From a candidate division WOR-3 bacterium (GTDB lineage: Bacteria > Hydrothermota > Tepidihabitantia > Tepidihabitantales > Tepidihabitantaceae), in contig JBDRUF010000010.1 of the NCBI GenBank assembly GCA_039801245.1, positions 1 through 44,306 on the forward strand: a DNA stretch of 44,306 bases. The letters run 5' to 3'. Every line of letters starts with the position of its first letter. Position 1 is the stretch's first letter. Positions 2,784 through 40,502 of this stretch are shown piece by piece. The position numbers and the translations under genes are program-made. The notes below the pieces were generated by a model that ran no database searches, had not been told where the DNA came from, and saw only the letters and a program-made list of their open reading frames with translations.

Positions 2784-2805
2784 TGGTTGTGGGTGAGATT
2801 TTATA

Positions 2806-5944: not shown

Positions 5945-5976
5945 TTGCGAGGTGAATATTTCCTGCGGCTATCATT

Positions 5977-19267: not shown

Positions 19268-22027
19268 ATGGCAGATTGGCATCTTAAGAGCATCCAAGAG
19301 GTTGTTCGGGAGTTAGGTTCGGACCTGAATAAGGGTTTGAGTTCTGAGGAGGTTCGGCGCCGGCTAAACAGTTTTGGCAGAAATGAGTTGAAAGAACAAG
19401 GGGTAAGAACCCCTTTATCAATCTTTCTTTCCCAGTTTAAATCAATTTTGATAATAATACTCATAGTAGCCAGTGTGATTTCTCTGTTCATGCGTGAATT
19501 TATTGATGCGATTGCGATATTTGCGATTGTTCTCTTGAATTCCATATTGGGTTTTGTGCAGGATTTCAGGGCGGAAAGGACGATGCAGGCGCTCAAGAGG
19601 CTGGCGGTCCCAAAGGTGCGGGTGCGCCGTGACGGACACATAATGGAGGTTTCCGCTCGTGAACTTGTCCCGGGTGATATCGTTCTCTTAGAGGCGGGCG
19701 TTCATATTCCGGCTGATGGCAGATTAATAGAGGCGGTGAATTTGCGGGTTTCTGAGGCGACTTTGACCGGAGAGTCCGAGCCGGTGGATAAGAGCATTGC
19801 GATTGAAAATACAAAATGCAAAATGGAAAATGGGGATGAGATCCCCCTGGTAGAGCGCAAAAATATGGTCTATATGGGAACAGCGGTAGTTGCGGGTAGG
19901 GGTGCAATGATTGTCACCACAACCGGAATGAATACCGAATTGGGGAAGATTGCCGAGATGCTTCAGACAGTCAAACGGGAGCAGACACCCCTGGAGAAGC
20001 GGCTCGTGCGATTGAGTAAAGAGCTGGCAGTTGGGGTGTTGATAATAGTAGGTGTAATTTTTGTCATTGGGGTGATGAGGGGAGGCGATTTAAAGACAAT
20101 GTTTTTGGTGGCGGTGAGTATGGCGGTGGCGGCTGTTCCCGAGGGTCTGCCCGCAGTGGTCACAATCACTCAGACTCTGGGCGCAAGGCGGATGCTTACC
20201 CGCAATGCGCTCATTCGACGACTCAATGCGGTTGAGACCCTTGGGTCAGTTACAGTTATCTGCTCGGACAAGACGGGGACATTAACTCAAAACAGGATGA
20301 CGGTGACGATGCTGGATGTGGCTGGTGACCGTTTGGAACTGTCTATTAACGATGGCGAAAGGGTGAGACTGCTTCAGGGAGCATCGGGTCAGGCGTTTGT
20401 GCTTCTGATTGCGGGGGGGGTACTTTGCAACGATGCTGTTATGGAAGAAAGAAATGGTGGTGTCAAGGTAATTGGTGATCCAACCGAAGGTGCGCTCGTT
20501 GTTCTCGGGGCGAGATTTGGATTGACTCAGGAGGTTTTGCATAAACTTTTGCCAAGGATTGCTGAGGTGCCTTTTTCATCAGAGCGGAAGAGAATGAGTA
20601 CCATCCACAGGTTGGAGGGTAATGGGTTATCTTTAGATGAGGCCAGAGGCAATGAGCTCCTCTTGTTGGAGACGCTAAGGGAATTTAGTTTAGATGGCGG
20701 CAGGTTTGTTTTTACCAAAGGGGCGGTGGATGTAATTTTGGAGTTATCAGCTTCGGTCCTTATTGATTCAAAATTTCAATCTTTGGATGAAGAGTGGCGG
20801 GCACGCATAATCGAGGGGCATAACAGGTTGACACAAAATGGTATGAGGGTACTGGGGGTGGCTTTTAGACCTTTAAAAGATATTGAAACAGCACATTGTC
20901 CCGAGATGCTGGAAAAGGAACTGTGTTTTGTCGGTATGATAGGAATGATCGACCCAGCAAGACCGGAGGTGAAGGATGCGGTTAGGGAATGCCGGCAGGC
21001 AGGAATAAGACCGGTAATGATTACCGGTGACCATCCCCTTACCGCGATGTATATTGCCTCTGACATTGGCGTTGAAGTTTCAGAAGAAGAGAATGCGTGT
21101 GTGACCGGAGCCGATTTGGCAAAAATGTCGGTGGAGGAGTTAAAACCCATAGTAGCGAGGACTAATGTCTTTGCTCGGGTGGCACCAGAGCACAAACTGA
21201 AGATTGTTATGGCGCTTCAGAGTTTAAATGAGGTGGTGGCGATGACGGGTGATGGTGTGAATGATGCACCGGCATTGAAAAAGGCGGATATTGGGGTAGC
21301 AATGGGGATCACGGGTACGGATGTGGCAAAGGAGGCGGCGGAGATGGTTTTGCTTGACGACAACTTTGCCACGATTGTAGCGGCGGTTAAGGAGGGCAGG
21401 ACGATTTACGATAACATCAAAAAGTTCATCCGCTATACCTTTGCTTCGAATGCTGGAGAAATTATTGTAATGCTGATTGCACCGTTCTTTGGTATGCCTT
21501 TGGCTCTGACACCATTACAGATTCTTTGGGTAAATCTTGTGACAGATGGTTTACCTGGTTTAGCATTAGGTATTGAAGGACCGGAACGGGATGTAATGCG
21601 CAAACCCCCAAGACCATTGGGTGAAAGTATTTTTGCCCACGGGATGGCATTTAATATCATCTGGTCTGGGGTATTTTTGGGACTCCTGTCTTTTTTCCCA
21701 GGCTGGTGGGCGTGGCGCAATGGTAACCCTGCTTGGCAGACAATTATCTTTACAGTGCTGACGATGGGGCAATTATTTCATTCCCTCTCCCTGCGTTCAC
21801 AGAGGGAATCTGTATTTACTTTTGGGTTTTTCACCAACCGCACTCTTATAGGCACCTTCATAACTACCTTGATTCTCCAACTTGGATTGATTTATTTGCC
21901 GATTGCTCAGCGGATTTTTCAGACACACTCACTCCCGTTACCACAACTTTTGATCATTCTCGCATTGAGTTCTATGGTTTTCTGGGTTGTGGAACTGGAA
22001 AAACTCTTTCGGCGGCACTTTCAATGA
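19268..22027 (+). CDS. P-type ATPase of the P2A (SERCA/PMCA-like) class, probable calcium exporter
   Basis: 919 residues with the complete P-type core. TGES (about 167-170) is the actuator motif and [10 protein letters not shown] carries the phosphorylated aspartate at D334. The hinge [12 protein letters not shown] is present. Ion-site residues of calcium pumps are visible: PEGLP in helix 4 (291-295), N-A-G-E in helix 5 and NLVTDGLPG in helix 6. The likely role is ATP-driven export of Ca2+ (or Mn2+) across the inner membrane. A hydrophilic insert near residues 180-190 coincides with a 7-bp tandem repeat (19805-19832), and the nucleotide-binding domain has an extra loop near 450-470. The stop overlaps the TamA-like start (ATGA). 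Confidence 0.92.
19805..19832 (+). repeat. Heptamer tandem repeat (CAAAATG family) inside the ATPase gene
   Basis: Four in-phase units of S-AAAAT-R (GAAAATA, CAAAATG, CAAAATG, GAAAATG). The array encodes a polar insert just before the conserved [10 protein letters not shown] motif. Because 7 is not a multiple of 3, gain or loss of one unit would shift the frame. Confidence 0.65.
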
Positions 22028-23739
22028 TTACGACCATTTCTTTACTCTTGGTAATAGGGATTACCGGTCAGGTGGACGCTGTGAAGTTTGCCGGCAACCG
22101 CTCTTTTCCGACACGCCTCCTGCGTTCCCTCATCCAGACAAAACCAGGTCAGCCCCTAATGAATGCCCAACTGGTAGATGACGTTCGTACACTTGAGAAC
22201 TTTTACACCCACAACGGGTTTTTTGCCGTCAAGATTGAAAAGGGGATTGAGAAGATAAAAGGGAAAACGGTAGTTAAATTTTATATTAACGAAGGAATGC
22301 GCAGTAGGATTAGTGATATCGTGATTACAGGCAATTATTTCTTTTCTGTGTCGCGCCTCAAATCACTTTTGCCATTCGGTGTCAAAGATTATTACAACCG
22401 GGACCTCGTAGTTCTTGGTGCCCACAATCTCCGCAACCTTTACCTTGACAATGGGTATCCTTTCGTTCAAGTTCAAGACACCGTTACCGTTACCGCCACC
22501 TCTGTTACCGTCTGCTATATTATTGAAGAAGGTCCGTGCTCCTATATCCAGGCGATTCGTGTCAGGGGAAATAAGAGCGTTGCTACCCCTACGATTTTAA
22601 GGACTATCGGCCTCGCCCCACGGGAAAAATTCTCCCGTTATCGCTTAGAGATGGCGAAACGTCGCCTTTACGCCAGTCGGCTTTTCTCCCGGGCCCATTA
22701 CTATGTTATTAAAAACGACTCCTTTCCTGATAGCGTGACGATAAGGTTTGACGTTGTCGAACAAAAACAAAAGGGCATTGGTATCGGCATCGGGGTGGAA
22801 ACTCCGCCGAGCCGAGTCTTAATCTCTCTTGACTGGGAACATAACAATCTCCTCAATCGGGGGCAAATGCTATTTGCGGCAACTAGCTTCGCAATACCAA
22901 TTACCAGCTACCGTGAACCACTCAGCGCCTACCGCTTCAACTTTGATATCACTTGGCGTGTTCCTTATTTATTCTATCAGCGAATTGATTTTCAGACGCA
23001 CCCATTTTTTTACTATGAAAAATTGGACTCTACCAGATTGCGTGAATATGGAATTGAGACCGGAATGAGTCGTGATATCGTTCCTCTTCTGCGGCTCGGG
23101 ATTTTCAACCGGCTGCGTCTCGTGGCTGATACTAGCAGGGGGATTACAAATTCCCTTGCCCTGAATTTGATTTACGACAACCGTGATAACCTCTTGGACC
23201 CACGGCAGGGATTTTATATCCTACCAGTAATGGAAATTGCGGGTGGACCTTTTTTGGGTGATAACCACTTTGTGCGGGGAAGAGCCGATTGCCGCGTCTA
23301 TCGAACAATCGGCCCGGCATTTGTTGTAGCAATCAGGGTTGCCGGTGGGAGGGTAGTGCCTTACGGCCGGTCAACCACTATTCCTTATTATGAAGAATTT
23401 TTTCTTGGGGGTGCCAACACCCTTCGGGGATACAATGAACGTTCCCTTGGTCCTGATACCGCTCAATCCGGAAGATACGGCCCGATAGTGGTTAATACCA
23501 ATCTTGAGCTTCGAACCCCGTACTTTTTCCGCTGGGTTGGTGTGGTGAGTTTTCTTGACCTTGGCCAAGTTGCTCGGGAGAGTGATATTATCCTTCGAGG
23601 CGTTGATGCTGGTGCCGGAATAGGAATCAGAGTGAAAACGCCGATTGGTCCTATTCGCCTTGACTGGGGGAAACGGTTAAAGGCGGCACCGAGAGGGGAT
23701 TTAGGTAAAATTTATATTGGGGTACTTCATGCCTTCTAA
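22024..23739 (+). CDS. Omp85-family outer-membrane assembly protein, TamA-like (BamA/TamA)
   Basis: 571 residues from the ATG at 22024. The frame is open from 21733, but only this start gives a signal peptide ([19 protein letters not shown]) and the ATGA overlap with the ATPase. Three POTRA domains can be read (about 18-90, 91-170, 172-260, each with a V-x-x-G-N motif). A 16-strand-type barrel follows with the Omp85 loop signature FFLGGANTLRGYNE (the VRGF/LRGY motif), then PIGPIRLDWG and a C-terminal aromatic (HAF). Three POTRAs, a length near 575 and the adjacent TamB-like gene favour a TamA role (insertion or export at the outer membrane) over BamA itself. Its presence is the clearest evidence for a diderm cell. 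Confidence 0.88.
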   Translation: MITTISLLLVIGITGQVDAVKFAGNRSFPTRLLRSLIQTKPGQPLMNAQLVDDVRTLENFYTHNGFFAVKIEKGIEKIKGKTVVKFYINEGMRSRISDIVITGNYFFSVSRLKSLLPFGVKDYYNRDLVVLGAHNLRNLYLDNGYPFVQVQDTVTVTATSVTVCYIIEEGPCSYIQAIRVRGNKSVATPTILRTIGLAPREKFSRYRLEMAKRRLYASRLFSRAHYYVIKNDSFPDSVTIRFDVVEQKQKGIGIGIGVETPPSRVLISLDWEHNNLLNRGQMLFAATSFAIPITSYREPLSAYRFNFDITWRVPYLFYQRIDFQTHPFFYYEKLDSTRLREYGIETGMSRDIVPLLRLGIFNRLRLVADTSRGITNSLALNLIYDNRDNLLDPRQGFYILPVMEIAGGPFLGDNHFVRGRADCRVYRTIGPAFVVAIRVAGGRVVPYGRSTTIPYYEEFFLGGANTLRGYNERSLGPDTAQSGRYGPIVVNTNLELRTPYFFRWVGVVSFLDLGQVARESDIILRGVDAGAGIGIRVKTPIGPIRLDWGKRLKAAPRGDLGKIYIGVLHAF

Positions 23740-23748
23740 TAAAACAGT

Positions 23749-26700
23749 ATGAAATTGTTGAGGCGGCTTTTACTGATTTTGCTGGGATTACTCCTTTTTC
23801 TTTTAGTGGGGTTGTTTATATTCCGCCAAGAGATTGGCAGATATGTTCTTAGAAGGACAGTCATTGCATTAGGCAAGGCGATACACTGGGAAGTAAGTTA
23901 CAAAACAATTGAAGGAGACATCTTTACCCATCCTCGGATAACGGGACTCTGTCTCACCCGGCAGATGGACACCATATTTATATCAAAACTGGAGGTTAAA
24001 TACGACATCTTCGCACTGGTGCAGCGGCGAATAGTCCTCTCAAGTGTGAAGATTATTGACCCTGACATCCGGATTACCCAAAGGGTAACAAAGGAAGTGA
24101 TTAAAGAAGGCAAAACAACCTTCGCATTTCCAAATTTGAGCGTGCGGCAGTTAGAAATAATAAATGGCAAGGTGACCCTGGCTGGTTTAAAACGGATTGA
24201 CTCCATAGGGTTGAAATCAAATTTCTCATGTTCCGGTACGCTCCTTAAACTGCAAGTTGATTCTGCTGGTTGTCGGCTGACACACGAAGGTCTTTCTATT
24301 AAGTCCCTAACCACAGAGGTAAGACTTGATGAAGGTTTATTGACCGTAAGCAATTTACAGATACTTACTGTTTCCTCAGAGTTGGCGGCTGGGTTTAGCT
24401 TGGATATAAATTCAGGTGCGATTGCGGTTGATACATTCAATCTCAGCTTAAATATTCAAGAAATAACCAAGATTCCCGGGAGGGTGCGGTTACAAGGGAA
24501 GGGAAGAATCGGCGAACAAATAAGGTTCCAAGCGAACTCTTGGATAGGAGGTCTTTCCTACCAACAACTCTCCCTCCCCAGTTTCTCGGGTAGTTTTGCC
24601 ATAGCCGATTCAACCCTAATCCTGCGATTGGGTGGGGCAAATGAAACACTGGGCGGTTTTGCGCTTGACGCCGAATTCAACTTGGCTAATTTTCTTTTCA
24701 ACGCCCACATTACTCTTGATAATGTGCCCGTTAACAAATTTAAGTCTGGCCTCCCGAAATTTTTGCTTTCAGCGACTATTTCCGCTGATGGCAAACTAGG
24801 TACCATTGCCCATTTACTAAAGAAAGAGGATGCAAAAATCAAGGGAGATTCAATTAATCTACTATTACGGGGTAGTGCTAAGGAATTAGGGGTTGATACC
24901 CTATATGCTACAGTGAAGTATCATGGGCAACAGACCGAGTTGCGGGAGTTGGTGCTTTCCGGCTCCGCAGGAAAGTTTCGATTTGCAGGTGTGGCAAGAA
25001 AAGGCTTTGTTGTTGCTGCCACTGAAATGGGAAATTTCGATCTGGGGGTTGCGGGCAAGTTTTTGTCTCTACCACTCACTGGTAGGGCCGATGGCGCGCT
25101 GCAGGTGGTATTGTTAGGTGATAGCTGGAAATTTACTGGGTTAGTGCACTTTGATGGGTTAGGAGTTGGCGGGATGGAAGTGACGCGTGGTCTCATCCAG
25201 GCGGACTTAACAGGGAGCGGGTTTTTAAAGAAGCCTCTCGAGAACACGATTTATGGGCGGATAGCAGTCGGTGGTGAGGGTGTGAGGATATTGGGGTATG
25301 AGTGGAACTGGGCGCAGTTTGTCTGGACCGGACCTGAGTTTGATTTCCAAGTAGAGAAAGATAGGCAACGGCTTTTGGCTACAGGCGACGTCTCTTTCGA
25401 GAAATCTAATATTCTTGCAGTATTACGCACGTTTGAGTTTACTATTAACGAGGAGACGCTGGAACTCTATGATTCCTGCTGGGTCAAGGTAGGAAGGGAT
25501 TCGCTATTGATCAGCGGGTTGAAGATAAATATTGCAGATGGAGAAATGGAGTGCAATGCCAGTGGCCGGATAGGCACAATGCCGCAACTAGGCATTCGCG
25601 CTCGAAATCTTAACCTTCGCAAGATTAAGGAGCTTTTAGGATTGAACGCCGATTTATCAGGAAATTTAAACTTTGACCTCTCGGGGCAGGACACCTTTTT
25701 CTTTTCTTGGAGCGGTGCTGATATTGAGCTGCCGGCAGCTAATATTACCTTTAAGTACATTGATGGTAGCTTGCTTCTGACCAAAGGCTTGTTATTTTTG
25801 AACTCACTGAGATTTGTTCACGAGCGAGATACCAGTATTATCAGCGGCATTTTCCAATATGAGGTGAAGGATGGGTTTCATTTTACCAGGATGGATTTCG
25901 ACCTTCACCTTGCAGACCCTGGCACCTGGCCTTTTGTTGTAACAAGACCTTATGTGGAGATACAGGAAGGTAAACTTTACGGAATCGCACAGGTATTCTG
26001 GCGGCCCCAAGATTTGAGCGTCACAGGTAGAATCCGGGTTCAGGACGGATTTCTCACTGTTCCTTCAGTCGACGGGAAAGTAGACCGTTTTCAAGCAGAA
26101 CTCACATTAAAGGACAACCGTATCATCTTGGAAAAACTGAGTGGGACGACCACAAAAGGGATATTGACGGCAGAGGGTTTTCTTCAATTAAATCCATCCG
26201 GGCGCTGCGATTCCCTCCGTTATACAATTTCTTTCACCGGCGCCTCCGCTGCGCCCATAACTGGTGTTTATGCAATTGGTGATGGTGAAGTTAGTGTATC
26301 TTGGCGGGAGGGGGAAAAGGCATTTATCTCTGGAGGTGCAGTTATTACCGAAGGTTTAGCCACCATCGGATTTGGTGGGCAGCCTTATAAAGTGGCCAGT
26401 GATTCAGGGGGTGTAGATTATGATATAACTGTCAAGGCAGAGCGGGGGGTTTGGTTACGTAATCGAGATGCGGACATTGAACTGGCAGCAGACCTAATTG
26501 TGAGGAGAGTTGGGGAGGAAGCGCTGTATTCGGGAGAGATGGTTGTAAAACAGGGTAGTGTCTATTACCTTGACCATATCCTTCGCATAACCGAAGGCAG
26601 ACTCCTATTTGAGAATTCAAGCCAATTTGACCCCCAACTTAATATAACCGCCGAATGTCCCGTACCCGGGAAAAGGGAGAATGCTCCCGAGAAGATTGTT

Positions 26701-27147
26701 TTAAGCCTAACAGGTAGGCTCTCTTCCCCTTCCTTTAGTTTCTCCTCCGAACCACCTCTCTGGGACGAAACCCAGATTATTACCTACCTTAGCCTAAATG
26801 TGACAATGGATGAACTCTCGGCGTTAGAAGAGAAGGAGTTGATTTCGCGGCTGCTATCTGAACGGCTCCTCGGTTACTTTCAGACACAGGCTTCTAAACG
26901 GGTGCGGGATTTCATCGGTCTTGATTACCTTGAAATTCAAACTGGGCTTACCGGTGACGAGACCAGGGTCACGGTCGGCAAATATGTTGGGCGGAATCTT
27001 TATGTTTCTTATACCCAGAACTTCACGGGAGAACTGCAACCGGCTTTTAGAATTGAATACAATCTCGATCAGCGCTCCGAACTTCTTGCCGAGCGTTCTT
27101 ACGAGGGTAGGTATTCCTTCCGCTACCGCTTCAAACTCCGCTTCTAA
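23749..27147 (+). CDS. TamB/DUF490 (AsmA-like, bridge-type) envelope protein
   Basis: 1132 residues. An N-terminal membrane anchor (about 5-27) precedes a very long, beta-rich body built of amphipathic repeats. The C-terminal region from about 870 is the TamB_C domain: VSWREG..., then TGRLSSPSFSFSSEPPLWDETQIITYLSLN, where the 'S-x-P-x-x-x-x-x-I-x-x-Y-L' element is diagnostic. It ends in an aromatic barrel-like strand (YRFKLRF). TamB proteins span the periplasm and are thought to move phospholipids or help TamA with outer-membrane proteins. The gene lies nine bases after the TamA-like gene, and its stop overlaps the priA start by one base (TAATG). Confidence 0.88.
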   Translation: MKLLRRLLLILLGLLLFLLVGLFIFRQEIGRYVLRRTVIALGKAIHWEVSYKTIEGDIFTHPRITGLCLTRQMDTIFISKLEVKYDIFALVQRRIVLSSVKIIDPDIRITQRVTKEVIKEGKTTFAFPNLSVRQLEIINGKVTLAGLKRIDSIGLKSNFSCSGTLLKLQVDSAGCRLTHEGLSIKSLTTEVRLDEGLLTVSNLQILTVSSELAAGFSLDINSGAIAVDTFNLSLNIQEITKIPGRVRLQGKGRIGEQIRFQANSWIGGLSYQQLSLPSFSGSFAIADSTLILRLGGANETLGGFALDAEFNLANFLFNAHITLDNVPVNKFKSGLPKFLLSATISADGKLGTIAHLLKKEDAKIKGDSINLLLRGSAKELGVDTLYATVKYHGQQTELRELVLSGSAGKFRFAGVARKGFVVAATEMGNFDLGVAGKFLSLPLTGRADGALQVVLLGDSWKFTGLVHFDGLGVGGMEVTRGLIQADLTGSGFLKKPLENTIYGRIAVGGEGVRILGYEWNWAQFVWTGPEFDFQVEKDRQRLLATGDVSFEKSNILAVLRTFEFTINEETLELYDSCWVKVGRDSLLISGLKINIADGEMECNASGRIGTMPQLGIRARNLNLRKIKELLGLNADLSGNLNFDLSGQDTFFFSWSGADIELPAANITFKYIDGSLLLTKGLLFLNSLRFVHERDTSIISGIFQYEVKDGFHFTRMDFDLHLADPGTWPFVVTRPYVEIQEGKLYGIAQVFWRPQDLSVTGRIRVQDGFLTVPSVDGKVDRFQAELTLKDNRIILEKLSGTTTKGILTAEGFLQLNPSGRCDSLRYTISFTGASAAPITGVYAIGDGEVSVSWREGEKAFISGGAVITEGLATIGFGGQPYKVASDSGGVDYDITVKAERGVWLRNRDADIELAADLIVRRVGEEALYSGEMVVKQGSVYYLDHILRITEGRLLFENSSQFDPQLNITAECPVPGKRENAPEKIVLSLTGRLSSPSFSFSSEPPLWDETQIITYLSLNVTMDELSALEEKELISRLLSERLLGYFQTQASKRVRDFIGLDYLEIQTGLTGDETRVTVGKYVGRNLYVSYTQNFTGELQPAFRIEYNLDQRSELLAERSYEGRYSFRYRFKLRF

Positions 27148-29989: not shown

Positions 29990-30017
29990 TTGACTTTTGA
30001 GATTGACGGGCTATGAT
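29990..30017 (+). promoter_or_regulatory. Promoter of the histidine kinase/PorX-like operon
   Basis: TTGACT (29990-29995), 16 nt, TATGAT (30012-30017). The TTG start at 30037 follows after 19 nt with a modest AAAGG ribosome binding site. Confidence 0.65.
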
Positions 30018-30036: not shown

Positions 30037-31293
30037 TTGAATCGTTTTAAATTCGGCTTCGGACCAAGAGCGTTACAGGTCTATTTCGTCATCGGCCTGT
30101 TAGGATTTGCCGGGGTCTGGTTTTTCTATTCCCAGTTTCTATTATTGCGGCTTTCCCGGGAATACCACAGTTATGCGACAACCCTTTTTCAGCAACTGGA
30201 AGCCGAGACCCAGTTGCGGACAAGGATTTATGCGCGGTTTATGAGCCAGATTACCGAGCCTGATGAGGCGGGTTCACCAGAACTGGACATTATCTTTGAC
30301 GAGGTGATTCAGAAGATTGACTTTCCGGTGGTCATTACCGCCCCGAATGGCGCGCCGGTCGCATTTCGCAACATCAGTAATCCTGAAACCGGTTATAGCG
30401 CACTTTTACAGGAGGTTGAGCGGCTTGACAAGGAGCATGAGCCGATTCCGGTTTTGGTGCGGGAGGGTGACTCGCTGCGCTGCCTTAATGTTATTCATTA
30501 CGGGGTATCACCGGCGACCGTTACCCTCAGGCAGATTACCAGTCAACTCACCCAATCGGTCAGGCAGTTGCGGCTTTTTTCGCTGATGCAGGCCTTGCTT
30601 TTCTTGGGGTTTGTCCTGATAGGTGTTATGGGCGTGTTGGAATACAAGCGCCGGGAACAGGAGCACATCTGGACCGCGCTTGCCAAGGAGACCGCGCATC
30701 AACTGGCAACACCGGTTTCCTCAATATCTGCCTGGCTGGAGGTCCTTAGGGAAAGCGGGCAGGGGGAGATTGCTCAGGAGATGGATGAGGACTTAAAGAG
30801 GATGAGGGAGGTCTTGAGTCGTTTCAGCCGCATCGGGCTTCCCCCAGATTTGGAAAGGGCGCCTCTGGGTGCGATTGTTAATCGGGCGGTTGATTTTGTC
30901 CGGCGGCGCGCCCCCAAAGGGATAAAGCTCGTGCTGGAGGTTATTGATGACCCGCTGGTTTTGGTGGATGCGGTGCTCCTTTCCTGGGCGATAGAAAATC
31001 TCTTGAAGAACTCTCTTGATGCGATTGGCGAAAGGGAGGGCGAGGTGAGGGTTCGGCAGTTTTTGAGTCCGGACCGACGCTGGGTTGAGGTTGAGATAAC
31101 CGATACTGGCGAAGGTGTCAAGATAGAAAGGCTGTTTGAGCCCGGTGTTACCACCAAGCCTTACGGCTGGGGTGTTGGTCTCACCCTGTCAAAGAGGATT
31201 GTTGAGGGGTATCATCAGGGGAGGCTGATTTTGAAAGAAAGCGCTCCGGGCAAAACGGTATTTGCCCTTTACCTGCCGACAGCCGGGAGCTGA
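30037..31293 (+). CDS. Sensor histidine kinase linked to a PorX-like regulator
   Basis: 418 residues from a TTG start supported by promoter spacing and AAAGG. A membrane helix (about 12-32), an extracytoplasmic sensor region of about 150 residues and a second helix (182-203) lead into the kinase core. The phosphorylated histidine is H221 in AKETAHQLATPVSS, a variant of the AKE-x-AHQ-x-x-TP box typical of kinases in the Bacteroidota/FCB group. The N box (N325 in NLLKNSLDAI), DTGEG (356-360) and GWGVGL (377-382) complete an intact ATP-binding domain. The PorX-like gene starts one base after the stop codon, so the two very likely form a two-component pair. In Porphyromonas the equivalent kinase role is assigned to PorY. 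The signal is unknown. Confidence 0.88.
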   Translation: MNRFKFGFGPRALQVYFVIGLLGFAGVWFFYSQFLLLRLSREYHSYATTLFQQLEAETQLRTRIYARFMSQITEPDEAGSPELDIIFDEVIQKIDFPVVITAPNGAPVAFRNISNPETGYSALLQEVERLDKEHEPIPVLVREGDSLRCLNVIHYGVSPATVTLRQITSQLTQSVRQLRLFSLMQALLFLGFVLIGVMGVLEYKRREQEHIWTALAKETAHQLATPVSSISAWLEVLRESGQGEIAQEMDEDLKRMREVLSRFSRIGLPPDLERAPLGAIVNRAVDFVRRRAPKGIKLVLEVIDDPLVLVDAVLLSWAIENLLKNSLDAIGEREGEVRVRQFLSPDRRWVEVEITDTGEGVKIERLFEPGVTTKPYGWGVGLTLSKRIVEGYHQGRLILKESAPGKTVFALYLPTAGS

Positions 31294-31294
31294 T

Positions 31295-32806
31295 ATGAAA
31301 ATCCTCTGGATTGACGACGAGATTGACCTCTTGCGTCCCTTTATCTACTTTCTTGAGAAAAAGGGGTATTCGGTAGCGACCGCCACCAATGGACCGGACG
31401 GGCTCAAACTGCTAAAAGAAACGGTGTTTGACCTCATCCTCCTTGACCAGATGATGACCGGAATGCAGGGGTTGGAGGTTCTGCGCCGGATTAAGGAGAT
31501 TGATCCGAATGTCCTCGTCGCGATGGTGACCAAATCCGATGATGAGGCGTTGATCAACGAGGCGCTGGGCAAACTGGTTGACGACTTTATTATCAAGCCC
31601 TTTACCCCGACGCAACTCTTGGCGGTCCTCAAGCGGCTCCTCGAAAAAAGGCGTCTGATTGCCGCCTCAATCGGCGAGGAGTTTGTGCGCACAATTAATG
31701 AGGAACGTGACCTTACCACCCCGCAGGACTGGCGCGCATACTACCAGGTGCTCAACTACTGGCAGAATCTCTTGGCGCGCTTTGGTGATGCGGCACTCAA
31801 AGAACTTCACTACACCTTTCGTCAAGAGGCAGATACCCGCTTCGGAAGGTTTGTTGAGGACAACTATTCTGACTGGCTTAAAGGCAACGGTCCGTTGATG
31901 AGCCACCGGCTGATTACAGATTTTGTCAGACCGAACTGGGAGGAGAAGCAGACCTATCTCATTCTGCTCGATTCAATGCGTTTTGACCAGTGGGAGGCGA
32001 TTGTCCCCCTTTTGCGCGACCATTACCAAATCCAATCAAACTATTATTACTCCATTTTGCCGACCGCCACCCCTTATTCCCGAAACGCCATCCTCAGCGG
32101 ACTTTTGCCATTGGAGATTTTCCGGCGCTACCCTCACTGGTGGGTTTTTGAGGAGAGTGGGCAGAATCGGTTCGAAGAAGAGCTCCTCGCCGAAAACCTG
32201 CGCCGATTAGGTTTCAAGGGGCGTTTTTCCTTTATCAAGGTCGCCAGGGGCGAAGAACTCGCTGCGGCAAGACCGGTTATCTTTGACACCAATGTCAGAC
32301 TGACAGTAATGGTTGTTAACTTCCTTGACCTCTTGATTCACTCGGTCAGGCAGACCCGACTTTTAGATGAAATCATCCCCGACGACGCCGCGCTCGTAGG
32401 TGCGACGAGGATATGGTTTGCATCCTCCCCAATACTTGAGCTGTTAAGACAGCTCTCAACAAAAAACTGTCGGGTCATTATTACCTCTGACCACGGGTTT
32501 ATCAGGGCCAATCGTCCGACACTCATTTACGGCTCCAGGGAAATATCGGCAAACCTTCGCTACAAACATGGTGCCGCGCTCAGGGTGGATACCCGAACCG
32601 CCCTCCTCTTAAACCATCCGGAGGATTTCTTCTTACCGGTTGAGCATCCGGGGGTGAAGTTTGCCATTGCCCGTTCCGACTATTACTTTATCTATCCTAC
32701 TAAACCTAAGGAATACGAAAAAACTTATAAACACACCCTCCAGCATGGTGGCATCTCACTTCAGGAGATGATTGTGCCCTTGGCACTCCTCAAACCTCGG
32801 TGCTGA
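31295..32806 (+). CDS. porX: PorX-like response regulator: receiver plus PglZ domain
   Basis: 503 residues from the ATG at 31295; an upstream in-frame start at 31262 lies inside the kinase gene. The receiver domain (1-120) has D7/D8, the phospho-acceptor D51 in LLDQMMTGM, T79 and K101 in IIKPF. A helical linker (about 125-215) precedes the PglZ domain of the alkaline phosphatase superfamily. Candidate metal and catalytic residues are D226 (LLDSMRFD), T257/T259 (LPTATPYSRNA), D345 and H349 (NFLDLLIHS), and D399-H400 (SDHGF). Length and domain order match PorX, the Porphyromonas regulator of T9SS genes whose PglZ domain is a zinc phosphodiesterase acting on oligonucleotides. There is no DNA-binding domain. 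Two proteins in this window with T9SS-type sorting ends are plausible clients of the system it controls. Confidence 0.88.
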   Translation: MKILWIDDEIDLLRPFIYFLEKKGYSVATATNGPDGLKLLKETVFDLILLDQMMTGMQGLEVLRRIKEIDPNVLVAMVTKSDDEALINEALGKLVDDFIIKPFTPTQLLAVLKRLLEKRRLIAASIGEEFVRTINEERDLTTPQDWRAYYQVLNYWQNLLARFGDAALKELHYTFRQEADTRFGRFVEDNYSDWLKGNGPLMSHRLITDFVRPNWEEKQTYLILLDSMRFDQWEAIVPLLRDHYQIQSNYYYSILPTATPYSRNAILSGLLPLEIFRRYPHWWVFEESGQNRFEEELLAENLRRLGFKGRFSFIKVARGEELAAARPVIFDTNVRLTVMVVNFLDLLIHSVRQTRLLDEIIPDDAALVGATRIWFASSPILELLRQLSTKNCRVIITSDHGFIRANRPTLIYGSREISANLRYKHGAALRVDTRTALLLNHPEDFFLPVEHPGVKFAIARSDYYFIYPTKPKEYEKTYKHTLQHGGISLQEMIVPLALLKPRC

Positions 32807-32818: not shown

Positions 32819-35800
32819 CTATACCTCTACTATTTCCGGTAAGGCGGTGAAGACAACAAATTTCTTGACAGCTCTCCCCGGGAAAAGTTCGGCGCAGGCA
32901 CGGGCATAATAAATCAACTGGGTGGCGTAGTAATGTTCCTTCAGCGCTAAAATCTCCTCCTCCTTCACCCTTAGAGTCTTGTAATCATAAATATGAACCG
33001 CATCCGGCTTGAGAATAACCCGATCGATCCTGCCGGTCCAGATAGTTTTCCCATCGTGATACATTATCGGTAGTTCCACGAAAGAGTTGGGTTGGGGTCG
33101 AACTATTTCCCAGACTGGGGATGAGACCAGCCCCTTAACAGTTCTCAGTATTTCCCCATCCAGTTTTTCAGCAATCTCTTTAGAGAAGCCCTTAATTCGG
33201 AGAAGGCGGGCTGTTTCCTCTTCCAACCGGGGGCTAAAGGGGTCAAGTTTACCGAGAGAGATTAGTTCCAGTAGCCGGTGCAGGGTTTCGCCAATGCCGA
33301 GGGCTTCATCCGAGTGTTTTTGTAGTTCGTGGGGGGTGTATTTTGTTACTGTGCGCACCTGGGGTGGTGGGGAGGGGAGTGGTGGTTCAATTCTGATTAG
33401 CGGTACAGAGGTAGGATGCTCCTCTGTTCCTCCTGACACTTCAATCTGCAGGATTTCCTGCGGCGTTGTTATGGAGAGTCCGGGAAGGTTTCTTGCAACC
33501 TCAAACCCGTGGTCAGTTCTCTTCAACCCCAAGTGATTAATCAACCATTCCAGCCTTGTTCCTTCAGGAGAGGATGTGTCCCAGACCCCGGTCAGGAAAA
33601 GGGCATCACGTGCCCTGGTGCAAGCCACATAAAACACCCTTTTTTCCTCCTCGATTACCTTTTCAAGATACTCAGCGTGGAGGGGGTGTAACCTTCTTAC
33701 CGAGCCTTCTTCAATGTATGAAAATATTACCTCCCCAAGGGCATTTTCCTCCACCACCAGTTTCTCCTTATATGTCTCCCTTTGCAGGACTCTTTCATGA
33801 AGCCCGGGATGAAATACTATCGGAAATTGGAGCCCCTTTGCCGAATGCACGGTCATAATTTGCACCGCGTTCATTTCTTCGTTAGGAATCTCGGCCTTGG
33901 GTTCATCCTTATTTGACTGTTCAAGCAAACTTTTAATTCGCAGCGGGGTCTTGCCGGCAAGTTCCTCCTCTTGGATGATGTGGATGAATTTCCTGATGTT
34001 GGCCACTCTTTGCGGTTCGCTGAAGACCTCCCACGCCTTTGTTTTGAGTAAAATATGGTCAACGAGAGAATATAAAGGTTCGTAGTTGACCTTTCTCAGG
34101 GCGTCCCCTAAGATTTTTCGTGCCCGCTCGAGCCCCTCGGACGGTTCTCGGGCGAGAGCGTCGAGGCGTTCCCATAATGTCGGTTCCTTTGTTTCGCCCT
34201 TCGTCATCCAGAGAAAAATGTCCCTTTCCGGGATATTGAACAACGGACCGCGCAGGGTGATGTAGAGCGCGGTGTCATCCGCCGGGTCAACAAGAAAGGA
34301 AACCAGGGCGGTGAGATACCTGACTTCGCTTTCTTCATAGAAGCCGGTGCCCCCAACAACCACAAATGGGATGTTTTCCTTGCGCAGAGATTTTTCCAGT
34401 GCTGGTAGTATTCCCTGGCGGCTGCGGATGAGAATGGCGATGTCTTTGTATCGGCAGGGGCGAACAATTTCTGATGCATCAAGGGATGAGTCTGAAACCT
34501 TGAAGTTGGTGGCAATAAGGGCTTTGATCGCGCGGGCGAGATTTTGGGCGTCGATTTCCCTTTTATCAGCGATACTTAAAACCTCTTGTCTCGGCTCAAG
34601 GATTATCGCTACCTTTCCCTGTTCTTTCCCAATGCGTCGGCACACAAAATGTCGGTAACGGGAGCGCCAGGGTTCCTTATTTTCAGTGGGGTTCATAAGT
34701 TGCGAAAAAAGGGCGTTGGTGAAATCAATTATTGCCGGCAGAGAGCGGTAGTTCTCTTGAAGAGTTACTGTTTCTACCTTTTCACTGCCCAGCCATTGTT
34801 CAAGTTTTTCCTTGGCTTTGAAAAATAACTCCACCCGGGCGTTGCGGAACATATAGATTGACTGCTTATCATCACCAACGATGAATATTGTCGGCGCGAC
34901 CCCCAGCTCCCTTTTTAACCCCTCTCCTGAGCGCCACTCCTCGGTGAGTTTATCAATAATCCCCCACTGGAGAAATGAGGTATCCTGAAACTCATCCACA
35001 AGGATATGGTCGGTGTGCTCGTCAAAGATATAAAGGATATTCTGCCATTCAGATTCCTCGGTCAATAGTCTCAAGGCAAGCAGTTCCATATCGTCATAAT
35101 CCACCACTCCGAGCCCCTGTTTCATCTCGTTGTAGGTCGCAAGAAAACAGTCCTGAAAAAGGTGCCACCTTTGTTTAAACAGGTTGAAATCATTCAGAAC
35201 AGCAATCAGATTGCGATAACGAACCATATCAGCTGCCCAACGGCGTTCCCTTTCAGAAAGACCCCTTATTCTCGGCGTGTTTTGCGTAGTCATAAACACA
35301 GATTGATGATCGGCGATGGTCTTAAAAATCCGCTCAATCACACCGGGATTACCTAAATCTTCTGGAAACAACTCCTGATAATTTTTAATTCTCTCAAACC
35401 CAGCCGGTTCTCTTTTTAACCGCTCAGCCAGTTCCTTAACTGAGTTTATGTCAAAACCCCTTGGTTTCGCTCTGAGGGCAACGGTTCTTTTTTCAAAAAG
35501 GTGGTCAAGAAACTTAGAAAAGTTTTTCCAGCCCTGAATGTGTTCGCGAGTTATGAGGCTGATTAAGAGTGAGCGGTAATCTGCGAGGTCGTTGTTTTCA
35601 GCGATTTTCATCAGGGCATCGTACTTTGCCTGTCGCCAGAGGTTCTTAGCGTCGGTTAAGGCAGCAGGGTTGGGATCGATATTCAAAAGGTCGGCAAAGC
35701 GTCGGACAAGTGAAAAACAGAATGAGTGAATGGTGGAGATGCGCAGGCGCAGGATATTCTCCCGCAATATGTTATAGATTTCTGGATTCCGCTTGCGGGC

Positions 35801-35977
35801 ATTGTTAAGAATTCTTTCCTTCATCTCTACTGCCGCCTTATCGGTAAAGGTTAGGGTCAGAATCCGTTCCGGTTTCACACCCGCCTCCACGAGTTCTAAG
35901 TAGCGATAGCTTAACTGTTCAGTTTTACCCGACCCCGCCGGTGCGAAGACGATTTTACTTTTTAGGGGAGGCGTCAT
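32819..35977 (-). CDS. addA: UvrD/Rep-type helicase-nuclease, AddA-like (RecB family)
   Basis: 1052 residues. The SF1A helicase is complete: Walker A at 12-19 (APAGSGKT), TLTFTDKAAVEMKERI, the DEFQDT box (ILVDEFQDTSF), VGDDKQSIYMFRNA, TVHSAKGLQFPIVF and FYVACTRARDALFLTG. The C-terminus is a RecB-type nuclease: GRIDRVI, then IYDYKTL with QLIYYARA following. AddAB complexes resect double-strand breaks for RecA-dependent repair. The ATG directly abuts the stop of the AddB-like gene. It converges with the PorX-like gene, with 12 bases between stops and no terminator visible. Confidence 0.9.
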   Translation of the reverse strand: MTPPLKSKIVFAPAGSGKTEQLSYRYLELVEAGVKPERILTLTFTDKAAVEMKERILNNARKRNPEIYNILRENILRLRISTIHSFCFSLVRRFADLLNIDPNPAALTDAKNLWRQAKYDALMKIAENNDLADYRSLLISLITREHIQGWKNFSKFLDHLFEKRTVALRAKPRGFDINSVKELAERLKREPAGFERIKNYQELFPEDLGNPGVIERIFKTIADHQSVFMTTQNTPRIRGLSERERRWAADMVRYRNLIAVLNDFNLFKQRWHLFQDCFLATYNEMKQGLGVVDYDDMELLALRLLTEESEWQNILYIFDEHTDHILVDEFQDTSFLQWGIIDKLTEEWRSGEGLKRELGVAPTIFIVGDDKQSIYMFRNARVELFFKAKEKLEQWLGSEKVETVTLQENYRSLPAIIDFTNALFSQLMNPTENKEPWRSRYRHFVCRRIGKEQGKVAIILEPRQEVLSIADKREIDAQNLARAIKALIATNFKVSDSSLDASEIVRPCRYKDIAILIRSRQGILPALEKSLRKENIPFVVVGGTGFYEESEVRYLTALVSFLVDPADDTALYITLRGPLFNIPERDIFLWMTKGETKEPTLWERLDALAREPSEGLERARKILGDALRKVNYEPLYSLVDHILLKTKAWEVFSEPQRVANIRKFIHIIQEEELAGKTPLRIKSLLEQSNKDEPKAEIPNEEMNAVQIMTVHSAKGLQFPIVFHPGLHERVLQRETYKEKLVVEENALGEVIFSYIEEGSVRRLHPLHAEYLEKVIEEEKRVFYVACTRARDALFLTGVWDTSSPEGTRLEWLINHLGLKRTDHGFEVARNLPGLSITTPQEILQIEVSGGTEEHPTSVPLIRIEPPLPSPPPQVRTVTKYTPHELQKHSDEALGIGETLHRLLELISLGKLDPFSPRLEEETARLLRIKGFSKEIAEKLDGEILRTVKGLVSSPVWEIVRPQPNSFVELPIMYHDGKTIWTGRIDRVILKPDAVHIYDYKTLRVKEEEILALKEHYYATQLIYYARACAELFPGRAVKKFVVFTALPEIVEV

Positions 35978-38806
35978 CTAATCTCCGGCATCTTTAAATG
36001 CTTCTTTCCCGCAGGTGAAGTGGAAATCGCAGTTTTCACAATTACTCAAGCTGCTGGGGGCGGCTAAAAATTTACCTTTACGGATATCGGCAACGATGTT
36101 AACCGTCCGCTCAATCGCCGCTTTGATTAACTCCTCAACCCTGGCGTTTTTATTTGCCAAGAATTTTAATCTTACGGAACGGAGGCTGTAAATACCCATA
36201 TTTTCTATCTGGAGATTTTGGAATTCCTCATCCTGAGACAGGAGATAGGCATAAAGTGGTAACTGGATGTGCGCATGGGCATTGATATCAGGAGAACCGG
36301 TTTTGTAATCGATTATACGGAGAAGGTTGTTTTTGCGGTCAATGCGGTCAATTCTGCCCAAAAGGTTAATGTCGGGTTTAATTGACCCATAGACACGTTT
36401 TTCTGTTTTTACTGGCTGAAAGCCATCGGCGCGAAGTTCCCTTTCGTATTCCACTAACTTGACAAAGAGATTTTTCAGGATGCGGTAGGTGACTTCTCTC
36501 CAAAAGGCAGGTAGAGTAATATTATTTAACTCCTGGTCAATGATTTCACCTGCGATTTTTCCAATATCCTCAACTGGAATTGGTCCCTCTTGATAGATTC
36601 TCGCCAGGATCCGGTGGGCGATAGAACCCCACATTCGGGCGTCAATTTCAAATGTCGGTTCGGGCGGTGTCTTTAGACCCAGGATATTATAGAGATAAAA
36701 TTGATAGGGACAGCGGAGGTAGCTTTCCAGCGTCGTGACATGGAATTTGGCGTTGGCTCCAAACCGCCGGTTCAACTCCTGTTTAATTTCCTCGTCACCT
36801 GAGAAATCAACCGTAAGGATGACATCTTCAAAAAGGCAATGCTTTTGGCGACCGCGATAGATTTGCTCCTCAACCTCAGAAAAAATAATCTCGCCATCGT
36901 GATACTTCACCGGTTCGGTTTCTATAAATGGTGTGCGCAAGACCGGTTTGCCGTTCCTGGATTCGTGATAGCTCAAAAAGGGGGTGTTCGGGCTGGACTC
37001 GAGGGTGCGACGGAAATGGAAACGCTGCCAGTCACGGTGCCACTCAATATCAGGCATCCCGAGTTTCTTGCGCACCGAATCGGGTAGAATTGGGTCAGGG
37101 TGGTAAGAGCCCGGCAGGTCGGTTTCGGTGAGACCAGCAAAATAAAGGTTAGTCGGATTCAGACCGAGGGTCTCTTCCATCTTCACAACCGTCACTCCCC
37201 CTCGGTCAGATTCAGGGGTTTTGATTTTTAGACCGATAAGGTAGGAGAGGGTCTTAATAAAAGAGGACCTCGAATCCTTTTGTTCACCGAATTCGGCGGC
37301 AAAGATAGCGATGGCATCGAGGATGTCGTAGAGTGACTTGCGGTCAAGGCGTAACTGCTCAAACCAGGGTTGTTCTGGGCTGATGTTTGAGCAGAACTCA
37401 GCGGTCTTGAGGAACTGCTTCAGTCTGCGTGCCTGATTACCGATCGTCCCTGCTGGTTCGAGAATTTTCTCAGTGAGACCGATTGCCTGACGGACCCGGG
37501 TCTGGAGTTCAAGAAGAAAATTCCTTTCCCAATCTTCCGGTTCAGTCTCCTCCTGGGCGAAAATCCGATTGGCGATGTTAAGCCAGTTGTCTTTTCCTTT
37601 GATGATGCCGGCGCGGCGAGAGAGGTAATTCAAGGATTGAGCGGCAAGGTTGCGTCCTCTCTCGTCTTTGTCATCAGGAAGTCTCAAAAGATAAGGGAGA
37701 TAGGGGGACGACAGGGCAGCACAGGTGGCAATCCGTTCATAGTCAGTATCAAGGGCACGGAGCAGTTCCAGGACACAAACAATCGGTGGTGAAGAGGAAA
37801 GTGTTGTCCGGGGATAAATTGTAAAGGGGATTGAATACTGGGGGAGGATGCGAGTGATGAGGGGTGCGTAATCTGATAAGCGTGGAAAGACAATATAGGT
37901 TTCCGCAAGGTTGGTATCTTCCTCGCGACTTCTAATGTTTCGGGCGATTCCGATTATTTCCTCTTCAGGGTTAGGGAACTTATAGAGCGGTGGGTTGGGA
38001 GGTTCAAAATCGACTTTAACCTCTTCAATCTCCAATCCGGGGGACTGGCTGAAGAAATTAACAAAGCGCTCACCAAGGGCATAATCCCTATCCCCCTCTT
38101 TAAAATATGTCCCCGCAAATGTCATTTCGGCATTCTCAACCAGGGCGCTCAAGAACTTTTCCTCAAGGTTGTTGGGAGCAACAAAACTGTCAAGGATAAG
38201 AATGCGGGGAGAGGGATGGTAATCGGAAATATGGTTTGCCGCCTCAAGGATAGAATCCTCATTGTCTATCGAGCCATGTTTTTCTAAGGTTGCGTTATAT
38301 AGAGTTAAGGTATACCAGGCATCCAATGCCCGGCGAAGCGGTTTCTCGTAGCCGGCTAAGGTCTCCTTAAGGACCGTAGGGATGTCCTGCTCTTTTTCTC
38401 TGGGCACATGCCTTTTGACATCAGCGACAAAGTCTCCAATTGCCCGGGCATAAGCAAGGGTTATCTTTTTACCTTTTTCTACAAACAGGTTTTTGATTAA
38501 CAGCGGTTTGAGTTCATCAGGGAAAAGCCGCTTATCTGAGGTGTAATCGCAGATTTCGCGGGCGAGTTGCCCTAAGGTGCGAAAAACGGGCGGGACAAAG
38601 GCCTTTCTGCCCCAGAGGCGGGCGAAGAGTACTTGCGTTGCGCGCAGTTTGCGCGGGCTTGGTGTGAGGTAGAGTATCTCTTGTGGTTGGGCACCTGTTG
38701 CCAGTGCCGCACGGAAAAGGAGTTCGGTACTGTTATAACAGTTAAAGGGAAAAAGGAATAGTTTACGCTTCTTGTTCAACTTTTGCCGCTTTTTTCCTTG
38801 CCTCAA
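35978..38806 (-). CDS. addB: AddB-like protein with PD-(D/E)XK nuclease and iron-sulfur cysteines
   Basis: 942 residues. The N-terminal part (from FLFPFNCYNSTELLF) follows the inactivated-helicase fold of AddB but has no Walker A motif. Residues beyond about 699 are the RecB-like nuclease: C699 in CPYQF, H-R near 732, D820, and D833/K835 in IDYKTG. Cysteines 699, 923, 926 and 932 match the 4Fe-4S cluster that staples AddB-type nucleases. It should pair with the adjacent AddA. The start is uncertain: ATG at 38806 lies inside the small basic gene upstream, while a TTG at 38779 would begin just before the conserved sequence. Either implies coupling to the small gene. Confidence 0.85.
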   Translation of the reverse strand: MRQGKKRQKLNKKRKLFLFPFNCYNSTELLFRAALATGAQPQEILYLTPSPRKLRATQVLFARLWGRKAFVPPVFRTLGQLAREICDYTSDKRLFPDELKPLLIKNLFVEKGKKITLAYARAIGDFVADVKRHVPREKEQDIPTVLKETLAGYEKPLRRALDAWYTLTLYNATLEKHGSIDNEDSILEAANHISDYHPSPRILILDSFVAPNNLEEKFLSALVENAEMTFAGTYFKEGDRDYALGERFVNFFSQSPGLEIEEVKVDFEPPNPPLYKFPNPEEEIIGIARNIRSREEDTNLAETYIVFPRLSDYAPLITRILPQYSIPFTIYPRTTLSSSPPIVCVLELLRALDTDYERIATCAALSSPYLPYLLRLPDDKDERGRNLAAQSLNYLSRRAGIIKGKDNWLNIANRIFAQEETEPEDWERNFLLELQTRVRQAIGLTEKILEPAGTIGNQARRLKQFLKTAEFCSNISPEQPWFEQLRLDRKSLYDILDAIAIFAAEFGEQKDSRSSFIKTLSYLIGLKIKTPESDRGGVTVVKMEETLGLNPTNLYFAGLTETDLPGSYHPDPILPDSVRKKLGMPDIEWHRDWQRFHFRRTLESSPNTPFLSYHESRNGKPVLRTPFIETEPVKYHDGEIIFSEVEEQIYRGRQKHCLFEDVILTVDFSGDEEIKQELNRRFGANAKFHVTTLESYLRCPYQFYLYNILGLKTPPEPTFEIDARMWGSIAHRILARIYQEGPIPVEDIGKIAGEIIDQELNNITLPAFWREVTYRILKNLFVKLVEYERELRADGFQPVKTEKRVYGSIKPDINLLGRIDRIDRKNNLLRIIDYKTGSPDINAHAHIQLPLYAYLLSQDEEFQNLQIENMGIYSLRSVRLKFLANKNARVEELIKAAIERTVNIVADIRKGKFLAAPSSLSNCENCDFHFTCGKEAFKDAGD

Positions 38807-38884: not shown

Positions 38885-40270
38885 TTATCTGACAATCACA
38901 ACCTTTGCTACGCAGTTTTTATACCGAATCAGATACACCCCGCTATTACTTTCTAATTTGATTAGGCCCAGTTTTGTGCCATTGACAGAGTAAAGTTCGC
39001 TCTCAGGGTCGGTGAAAACTGGAATGCAGGTATTTTCCCCGCCTCTTATGATAGTGGGTAACAAGTGTGTTTGATAGCGACTGTTTCCCTTTTCCGTAAT
39101 GCCGGCAAAGGGTGCGCTGTGGATGCAGTAAAGTTCGGTGTCAGCAGGAGTTTCAATAATTGCCAAGACATGACCGCAATGGCTGGTGTCAATGGTAATT
39201 GCGCCACCGGTGGTATGTGAATCCGCCCGAATTGGCGAATTGTACCACCGTCCGGTACAGTTGGAGCAGTGATAGAGCTGTTCAGCAATGATGTTGCCGT
39301 TGATGAGTTGCCAGGTAATGTGGATATTGGTGTCATCCATACAAAACCCCTGCATCTGGGCACTGGCATCAGCGGTAATTCGCTGATAAGGGTCCCAGTT
39401 GGTTGAGTTGGGCGGGCGATGGAGATAATGGGTGCGGAATGGCATACCCCAGCCGTCATTGCCGCTGGCGACCAAAAAGAGTTCCTCACCCGCATAAGCG
39501 GCAAGCGCGGAAATATAATCGTAATTGTTGGCGGTGATAAGAACTTCATAGGACCAGTTGGTGTCCCCAGGGGCAGAGTTTTCTGCATGGTGAATGTGGT
39601 AATCAGGATAGTTGCCCCCGCGATAGGTGATATGGGCAATACCAGATGGCGAGACCGCAAGATGGGGCATTGCACCGGTACCAAAATCACCAAGTTGGCT
39701 CTGGCGGAGGATTGAGGTTTCCCAGATGCCATCGCGTTCCCTTGCATAACCGATGCGATATGCCACCCCTGGTTCCCTTGTCACCCAGGCGATATGGACA
39801 GATGAGTCCTTCTCCAGGGCGATTGTCGGTGTCCAGTCCTGGACTGTGTCCTTGGTTAGCCGAATTACCTGCCAGGCACCAGGGCAAAGCTTTTTTGCAT
39901 AGCAGAGTTCAGCACTGTCGGCAAAATTCTGGATAAAGGCGATATGGGCAACACCGGTGGTCTTTCCCGCTGTCAGGGCAATATGAACGGCAACCATTTC
40001 GGCAATGGTCTCAGGAACCGACCAGTTTGAATCTGGTGGTTTGCAGGAGTAAAGCAGATAGTTTGGTCCAGCACCAAGCCTTTCTACCCAGGCGGCATGG
40101 AGCGTCCCGGTGTTGTCACAGGCGAGGGATTGCATTGAGACGGTCTTGCGCGCACGGGTGTGGGTGAGTGTATCCATCCCGGTGGTGATCCAGGCGCCAA
40201 ATAGCGGCAGGGGAGACGCAAGGGTAATAAAAAATGTCAACCCATTAATCGGTAACCTTGAAAACCTCAT
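38885..40270 (-). CDS. Secreted repeat protein (BNR/Asp-box-like) with a T9SS-like C-terminal domain
   Basis: 461 residues if started at the ATG at 40270 (in-frame ATGs at 40273 and 40279 would add 1 or 3). The signal peptide MRFSRLPINGLTFFITLASP is followed by recurrent strands of the form 'HIAW/HITY': LHAAWVERL, VAHIAFIQN, VHIAWVTRE, AHITYRGGN, IHITWQLIN. They are spaced about 45-65 residues apart and suggest a sialidase-type propeller without visible catalytic residues. The tail (ELYSVNGTKLGLIKLESNSGVYLIRY, ending in VVIVR) resembles the C-terminal sorting domain of T9SS cargo. The start codon lies inside the end of the preceding EF-like gene (26-bp overlap). It is surprising to find such a gene in an operon with asnS and addAB. 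Confidence 0.7.
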   Translation of the reverse strand: MRFSRLPINGLTFFITLASPLPLFGAWITTGMDTLTHTRARKTVSMQSLACDNTGTLHAAWVERLGAGPNYLLYSCKPPDSNWSVPETIAEMVAVHIALTAGKTTGVAHIAFIQNFADSAELCYAKKLCPGAWQVIRLTKDTVQDWTPTIALEKDSSVHIAWVTREPGVAYRIGYARERDGIWETSILRQSQLGDFGTGAMPHLAVSPSGIAHITYRGGNYPDYHIHHAENSAPGDTNWSYEVLITANNYDYISALAAYAGEELFLVASGNDGWGMPFRTHYLHRPPNSTNWDPYQRITADASAQMQGFCMDDTNIHITWQLINGNIIAEQLYHCSNCTGRWYNSPIRADSHTTGGAITIDTSHCGHVLAIIETPADTELYCIHSAPFAGITEKGNSRYQTHLLPTIIRGGENTCIPVFTDPESELYSVNGTKLGLIKLESNSGVYLIRYKNCVAKVVIVR

Positions 40271-40502
40271 CATGTTCATGCACCCGGCAAGATACCTTCA
40301 TCCCTGCCTCCTGTCCGATTTCTATCCGCTGAACCGGCTGGTGCTCTATCTGCAGGGATTCAACAACCTGGGTGTGGTCGGTGGTGTGGCCCTTGATGTG
40401 AATTTTGTCGCCAACCGCAATTGCTCCATCAGTAGCCTTGACAACCGCCACACCAATCTTCCCGAAGTAATGGGTGATGATGCCAACCTTTGTTTCGGGC
40501 AT
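40245..40502 (-). CDS. Small translation-factor-like protein (EF-Tu domain 2 fold)
   Basis: 85 residues: VGIITHYFGKIGVAVVKATD, then AVGDKIHIKGHTTD, QVVESLQIEH and GMKVSCRVHEHDEVFKV. This is the conserved pattern of stand-alone proteins annotated as 'translation elongation factor-like', which correspond to the beta-barrel domain 2 of EF-Tu/IF2-type GTPases without a GTPase domain. Their job is not established. The start is firm: a full Shine-Dalgarno (AAGGAGGT) lies a few bases upstream. It follows asnS by 12 bases, and its end overlaps the start of the secreted-protein gene. Confidence 0.85.
   Translation of the reverse strand: MPETKVGIITHYFGKIGVAVVKATDGAIAVGDKIHIKGHTTDHTQVVESLQIEHQPVQRIEIGQEAGMKVSCRVHEHDEVFKVTD

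Follow-up and report, generated by a model that had tools for sequence, protein, structure and literature searches.

A PorX-type regulator and its adjacent histidine kinase in a candidate division WOR-3 genome with T9SS-like export genes and no recognisable PorLMN motor

The type IX secretion system (T9SS) has been called restricted to Bacteroidota (PMC10951265, PMC5005315), is assigned to the Bacteroidetes-Chlorobi-Fibrobacteres group by another source (PMC12421860), and possibly occurs in further FCB phyla, on a list that does not include WOR-3 (PMC11285876). Among its regulators is PorX. In the solved PorX, phosphorylation drives formation of a dimer and is tied to a zinc-dependent phosphodiesterase activity (PMC11320123). 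In Porphyromonas gingivalis, PorX acts on T9SS genes via SigP (PMC4800418); binding of PorX to PorL, a motor protein, is described as well (PMC5005315, PMC10951265). Its mode of action, whether through gene expression by SigP, binding to the PorL motor or phosphodiesterase activity, has been called controversial (PMC10951265). The porX and porY genes of P. gingivalis lie about 1000 genes apart (PMC5005315), which agrees with the statement in the initial annotation of our sequence that the two are unlinked in Porphyromonas. In a literature search that covered few subscription journals, neither a kinase-porX operon nor the presence of T9SS parts in WOR-3 was found described.

The stretch of DNA that was analysed (44,306 nucleotides, hereafter the window) comes from a candidate division WOR-3 bacterium and carries such a gene pair on its plus strand. 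The first gene (30037-31293) encodes a sensor histidine kinase of 418 aa with a TTG start and a TGA stop, in which the Pfam domains HisKA (29.5 bits) and HATPase_c (54.9 bits) are found, together with two predicted transmembrane helices (residues about 12-37 and 183-201) and an alpha/beta extracytoplasmic domain. Its H-box reads KETAHQLATPVSS, and the phospho-acceptor H221 (codon at 30697-30699, plus strand) is invariant in an alignment of 18 kinases (alignment A2). The second gene (31295-32806) starts with ATG, a single base after the kinase stop codon, and encodes a PorX of 503 aa, composed of a receiver (residues 3-112; Response_reg, 88.1 bits), a helical linker and a PglZ/alkaline-phosphatase-type domain (residues about 220-503; PglZ, 62.2 bits). 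The open reading frames and Pfam matches thus bear out the initial description of an intact kinase and receiver-PglZ pair one base apart. A promoter-like site, TTGACT-16-TATGAT (29990-30017, plus strand), a consensus match only, is located 19 nt upstream of the kinase start codon. We regard it as probable that a dedicated PorX kinase-regulator operon of this kind governs a T9SS-like export system that is without a recognisable PorLMN motor.

The identity of the regulator is clear. The model NF052313 (T9SS_RR_PorX) matches residues 2-502 at 535 bits (cut-off 300), so a chance match to PorX is excluded, and the protein can be aligned along its full length with the solved PorX from Flavobacterium johnsoniae and P. 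gingivalis, at 34-36% identity. The AF2 model has a pTM of 0.81, and in a Foldseek search of the PDB with this model the best 17 matches were all PorX (E about 1e-45 to 1e-48, TM about 0.7). Moreover, the zinc and reaction residues reported for F. johnsoniae PorX, D237, T271, D360, H364, D414, H415 and H499 (PMC11320123), correspond in order to D226, T259, D345, H349, D399, H400 and H484 of the window PorX. These seven residues show zero substitutions in an alignment of 80 PorX proteins, with gaps in one or two rows, and the phospho-acceptor D51 (codon at 31445-31447, plus strand) is aspartate in 80 of 80. The initial annotation had listed H221, D51, D226, D345, H349, D399 and H400 as intact, as indeed they are; two essential residues that it did not mention are likewise intact, namely T259, the nucleophile, and H484, the seventh of the metal ligands. 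Receiver position 98 is Phe in the window PorX, and in the alignment of 80 it is Tyr in 62 and Phe in 18.

The window was also said to hold two proteins with sorting domains, and one of them stands. The minus-strand gene at 15276-17648 encodes a beta-propeller protein of the YncE type that carries a T9SS type A sorting domain at its C-terminus (residues 721-790; TIGR04183, 31.5 bits, cut-off 23; PF18962, 32.3 bits), and its product is probably a T9SS cargo, judging by this domain. The other, a predicted secreted protein (38885-40279, minus strand), ends by eye in something like a degenerate sorting domain and matched none of the sorting-domain models. Several neighbours were observed besides. 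A polysaccharide export and biosynthesis cluster (163-9395), comprising a chain-length determinant, a flippase, an O-antigen ligase and several glycosyltransferases, could supply the surface glycan onto which cargo is attached by a PorU-type sortase. At 21733-27147 (plus strand) an Omp85/POTRA protein adjoins a TamB-domain protein (118.6 bits); together they resemble the TamA/TamB pair of outer-membrane assembly. Immediately 3' of porX (32819-38806, minus strand) are a UvrD-helicase/PD-DEXK nuclease of 1052 aa and a PD-DEXK protein of 942 aa, which are AddAB-like, and at 42666-43898 (minus strand) there is a homologue of the LarA-type nickel-pincer racemases, whose best match, the malate racemase LarAH6 model, gives 309 bits, below the cut-off of 500.

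The source genome measures 1.70 Mb in 70 contigs and is 97% complete. NCBI taxonomy places candidate division WOR-3 in the phylum Caldifarciminota, not in Bacteroidota; the organism is therefore outside Bacteroidota as had been supposed, and the reservation that a member of Bacteroidota would make the finding routine does not apply. SprA is encoded by a single frame of 1896 aa (473 bits, cut-off 200), and 19 of 20 genomes of the class have SprA above the cut-off. A PorU-type sortase with a C25 protease domain matches its model along the full length with 415 bits, just short of the cut-off of 420, which some of its relatives exceed. The gene directly following PorU belongs to the PorV family: it reaches 159 bits with the PorV/PorQ family model (cut-off 90) and stays below the narrower PorV equivalog NF033710 (79.1 bits, cut-off 250). 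Sorting-domain matches (TIGR04183) number 84 in the source genome versus 22 in the 4.2-Mb genome of Leadbetterella (Bacteroidota). In addition to PorU, several further large open reading frames like C25 peptidases (gingipain-type fold) occur at C59, C29 and C3 of the source genome, and these are possible T9SS cargo.

No such matches were obtained for the motor and ring. The models for PorL and PorN detected nothing in 14 WOR-3 genomes and that for PorM nothing in 20, while in the positive control Leadbetterella they gave 377 bits for GldM/PorM, 220 for GldL/PorL (TIGR03513) and about 135 for GldN/PorN. PorM, PorL and PorN were also below the cut-offs in the tried genomes of Zixibacteria, KSB1, Ignavibacteria, Cloacimonadota, Gemmatimonadota, Calditrichia and Poribacteria, and one GldL match in a Bacteroidia genome, with 19.7 bits, was below the cut-off as well. 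The three proteins could be too diverged for the models. Nevertheless, SprA of WOR-3 reaches roughly one quarter of the score obtained in Leadbetterella, which is well over the cut-off, so that an equally diverged motor should have shown. As judged by these models, then, the source genome appears to have an export system in which the PorL/PorM/PorN motor and ring are not detected. A set without motor has a precedent, since a survey of Bacteroidetes gives for an 'Incertae sedis' set Sov, PorU, PorV, PorX, PorY and SigP and no PorK, PorL, PorM or PorN (PMC7323717). The proposal of T9SS-like export outside Bacteroidota, for which the initial annotation had called for a search of core components, is thus upheld for SprA, PorU, PorV and the candidate cargo with C-terminal sorting domains (CTD), so that the case of every core component being absent does not arise; for PorL, PorM and PorN, which were not detected, it is not, and the system is incomplete in comparison with the known T9SS.

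Far from being confined to this genome, the pair is the usual arrangement in WOR-3 and in several further phyla. The kinase precedes porX in 27 of 30 loci of the WOR-3 class; of the three exceptions, one is truncated at the end of its contig and two come from a genus where one genome has the kinase elsewhere. In 80 named porX loci taken from a genome-wide scan, the kinase was adjacent in 39 and near in 4, these linked loci belonging to WOR-3, TA06, Zixibacteria, Eisenbacteria, Gemmatimonadota, Poribacteria, one Calditrichota and others. At all testable loci of Bacteroidota, Ignavibacteria, Cloacimonadota and KSB1, the kinase was not found within 4 kb of porX (less at contig ends).

An H-box with the pattern [KR]E[TAS]AHQ[LMIF][AG][TS]P is common to the linked kinases. 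When profile A2, built from the linked kinases, was run on 15 genomes that have PorX, linked or unlinked, it found one outstanding kinase per genome in 15 of 15. In the unlinked genomes the best kinase scored 196-459 bits and the next about 130 or less, for example 339 and 113 bits in Leadbetterella, 412 and 105 in Ignavibacteria, and 459 and 120 in KSB1, and these unlinked members have nearly the same H-box. The kinase tree agrees with the PorX tree (Spearman 0.78, with 0 of 999 permutations as high), an agreement that speaks for joint inheritance, not interaction, since vertical descent alone would also produce it. Two of the three other located kinases in the source genome lie within 50 bp of another receiver. 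A Foldseek search with the kinase model returned generic kinase cores, and the sensor domain was not identified by these matches.

Whether this kinase is PorY deserves particular attention. The pair may represent the classical PorXY, the kinase being a diverged PorY; the two genes would then have kept the linkage of the common ancestor, which was lost later in Bacteroidota. The unlinked relatives in Bacteroidota and Ignavibacteria are 396-407 aa long, with two transmembrane helices and the histidine at H192-198, which matches P. gingivalis PorY (395 aa, transmembrane helices at 14-36 and 149-173, H193; PMC5005315); moreover, the family kinase is unlinked in PorX-bearing Bacteroidota genomes, and porX and porY co-occur with T9SS genes (PMC10951265). 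However, the PorY model NF052314 (cut-off 350) scored the Leadbetterella member at 43.5 bits and another from Bacteroidota at 63.9 bits, under generic models such as AtoS, and the window kinase was not among the best 25 matches listed for it and therefore scores 28.6 bits or less. An identification of the unlinked Bacteroidota kinase as PorY from its topology and H-box was withdrawn because NF052314 gave no support, and two other Leadbetterella kinases that were scanned, out of 23 kinase hits, are PnpS/PhoR-like and AtoS-like, not PorY. A diverged PorY is accordingly a reading that we hold to be somewhat doubtful, though one to be taken seriously. An equation of the window kinase with PorY was not borne out, as judged by the model and not by PorY sequences, and the kinase is probably a PorX-associated one distinct from PorY as NCBI models it. 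We propose tentatively, and with slightly less than even confidence, that PorX has an ancestral, non-PorY kinase whose gene adjoins porX in WOR-3 as well as in Zixibacteria, Eisenbacteria, Gemmatimonadota and others, that this kinase persists, unlinked and unrecognised, in Bacteroidota, and that PorX together with it governs export without PorLMN; if this is true, motor binding is a late addition to the function of PorX. The family member of Leadbetterella (locus L105, genome G061) is unlinked and found in a genome with PorL, PorM and PorN, and it is a candidate for an unrecognised PorX kinase of Bacteroidota.

As to how the operon would govern export, the membrane sensor kinase would phosphorylate D51 of PorX, a phosphotransfer within the window pair that we infer from the adjacency of the two genes. 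Phosphorylation of D51 would then yield a PorX dimer, coupled to the zinc-dependent PglZ phosphodiesterase acting on a nucleotide-type substrate, which is chemistry known from the relatives of this protein. The output of PorX would adjust T9SS-like export by the SprA translocon, the PorU sortase and the PorV shuttle, with dozens of CTD cargo. Binding to PorL in the manner of CheY should not be this output because the genome has no recognisable PorL-PorM-PorN, and gene expression or oligonucleotide turnover would be likelier. That the pair controls the T9SS is suggested by co-occurrence and by the known role of PorX in Bacteroidota.

PorX might instead serve a separate role in nucleotide signalling or envelope stress, its co-occurrence with SprA reflecting shared ancestry only. 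Motor binding is unavailable to it without PorL/PorM, PglZ domains act also in anti-phage BREX systems (PMC12839542), and some genomes with SprA have no detected PorX. The latter are several incomplete genomes and the 97%-complete, scaffolded G031, and their assemblies are fragmentary or have N gaps; PorX may be dispensable in some SprA genomes. Co-loss of PorX and the kinase in G031 and G058 was considered as a natural experiment and dropped, for the pieces of sprA in these assemblies stop at N runs and the absence of both genes may be an assembly gap. In these two single-contig WOR-3 assemblies (loci L183, L184 and L185), sprA is broken at or near N runs, and in G058 its N-terminal part lies about 30 kb off on the opposite strand, so scaffolding errors are probable. 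Against a role apart from the T9SS, PorX over the cut-off is present in 53 of the 61 genomes across the class, PorX and SprA are each found in 0 of 14 controls, and PorV is present in all 14 of the PorX genomes from other phyla that were tested for it. Furthermore, no other BREX gene was recognised around porX and the matches to the defence library were weak PglZ-domain ones only, and a BREX or other defence locus was rejected. A role unconnected with export is, on this evidence, unlikely, and we retain the reading that the operon governs T9SS-like export.

Gain of the operon from Bacteroidota by horizontal transfer might be suspected because PorX was described first and mostly there, but it is scarcely credible, being rejected by both trees: most WOR-3 PorX, including that of the source genome, form one group apart from Bacteroidota and Ignavibacteria (support 97), the kinase tree shows the same WOR-3 grouping, and a second WOR-3-labelled PorX group, on a separate branch, is likewise outside Bacteroidota. 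The state of linkage requires only three changes on the PorX tree.

The controversy over PorX gains from these genomes, for WOR-3 separates the options: PorX, its partner kinase, SprA, a sortase and dozens of cargo are present with no recognisable PorL/PorM. The role of PorX there should not need the motor, since none is recognisable, and this suggests that PorX has a motor-independent job. WOR-3, Zixibacteria, Eisenbacteria and Poribacteria can be added to those phyla where T9SS-type parts have been proposed to occur (listed in PMC11285876), and the question is raised of what powers SprA in them. For Bacteroidota genomes whose PorX looks like an orphan, the conserved pair points to a candidate PorX kinase. 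We consider the most useful points to be the widespread conserved pairing, a kinase that is probably not PorY, and the persistence of PorX without a recognisable motor.

Compared with known systems, the window PorX has a PglZ phosphatase domain homologous to that of BREX-3 PglZ (NF033449, with 93.6 bits below the cut-off of 250), but its PglZ is fused to a receiver and no other BREX gene was recognised in the window. With the PorX of P. gingivalis and F. johnsoniae (PDB 7PV7, 8TED, 8P6F) it has in common the REC-helical linker-PglZ architecture, the seven residues, the phospho-Asp, the Thr/Lys switch and the fold; it differs in being linked to a kinase, in having Phe98 where most have Tyr, and in coming from a genome where no PorL/GldL was found. 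P. gingivalis PorXY likewise combines a membrane histidine kinase of similar topology with PorX, whereas in WOR-3 the genes are adjacent and the kinase fails NF052314. The source genome resembles those with a T9SS in having SprA/Sov, a C25-domain PorU in tandem with PorV, and CTD cargo, while PorL, PorM and PorN are undetected and SprA has 1896 aa versus a 2474-aa open reading frame in the Leadbetterella control. Finally, the 'Incertae sedis' set, as given in the accessible part of PMC7323717, lies inside Bacteroidetes as then defined and is presented there with no mention of kinase-PorX linkage, but it is like the WOR-3 set in combining, without PorLMN, the components Sov, PorU, PorV and PorX.
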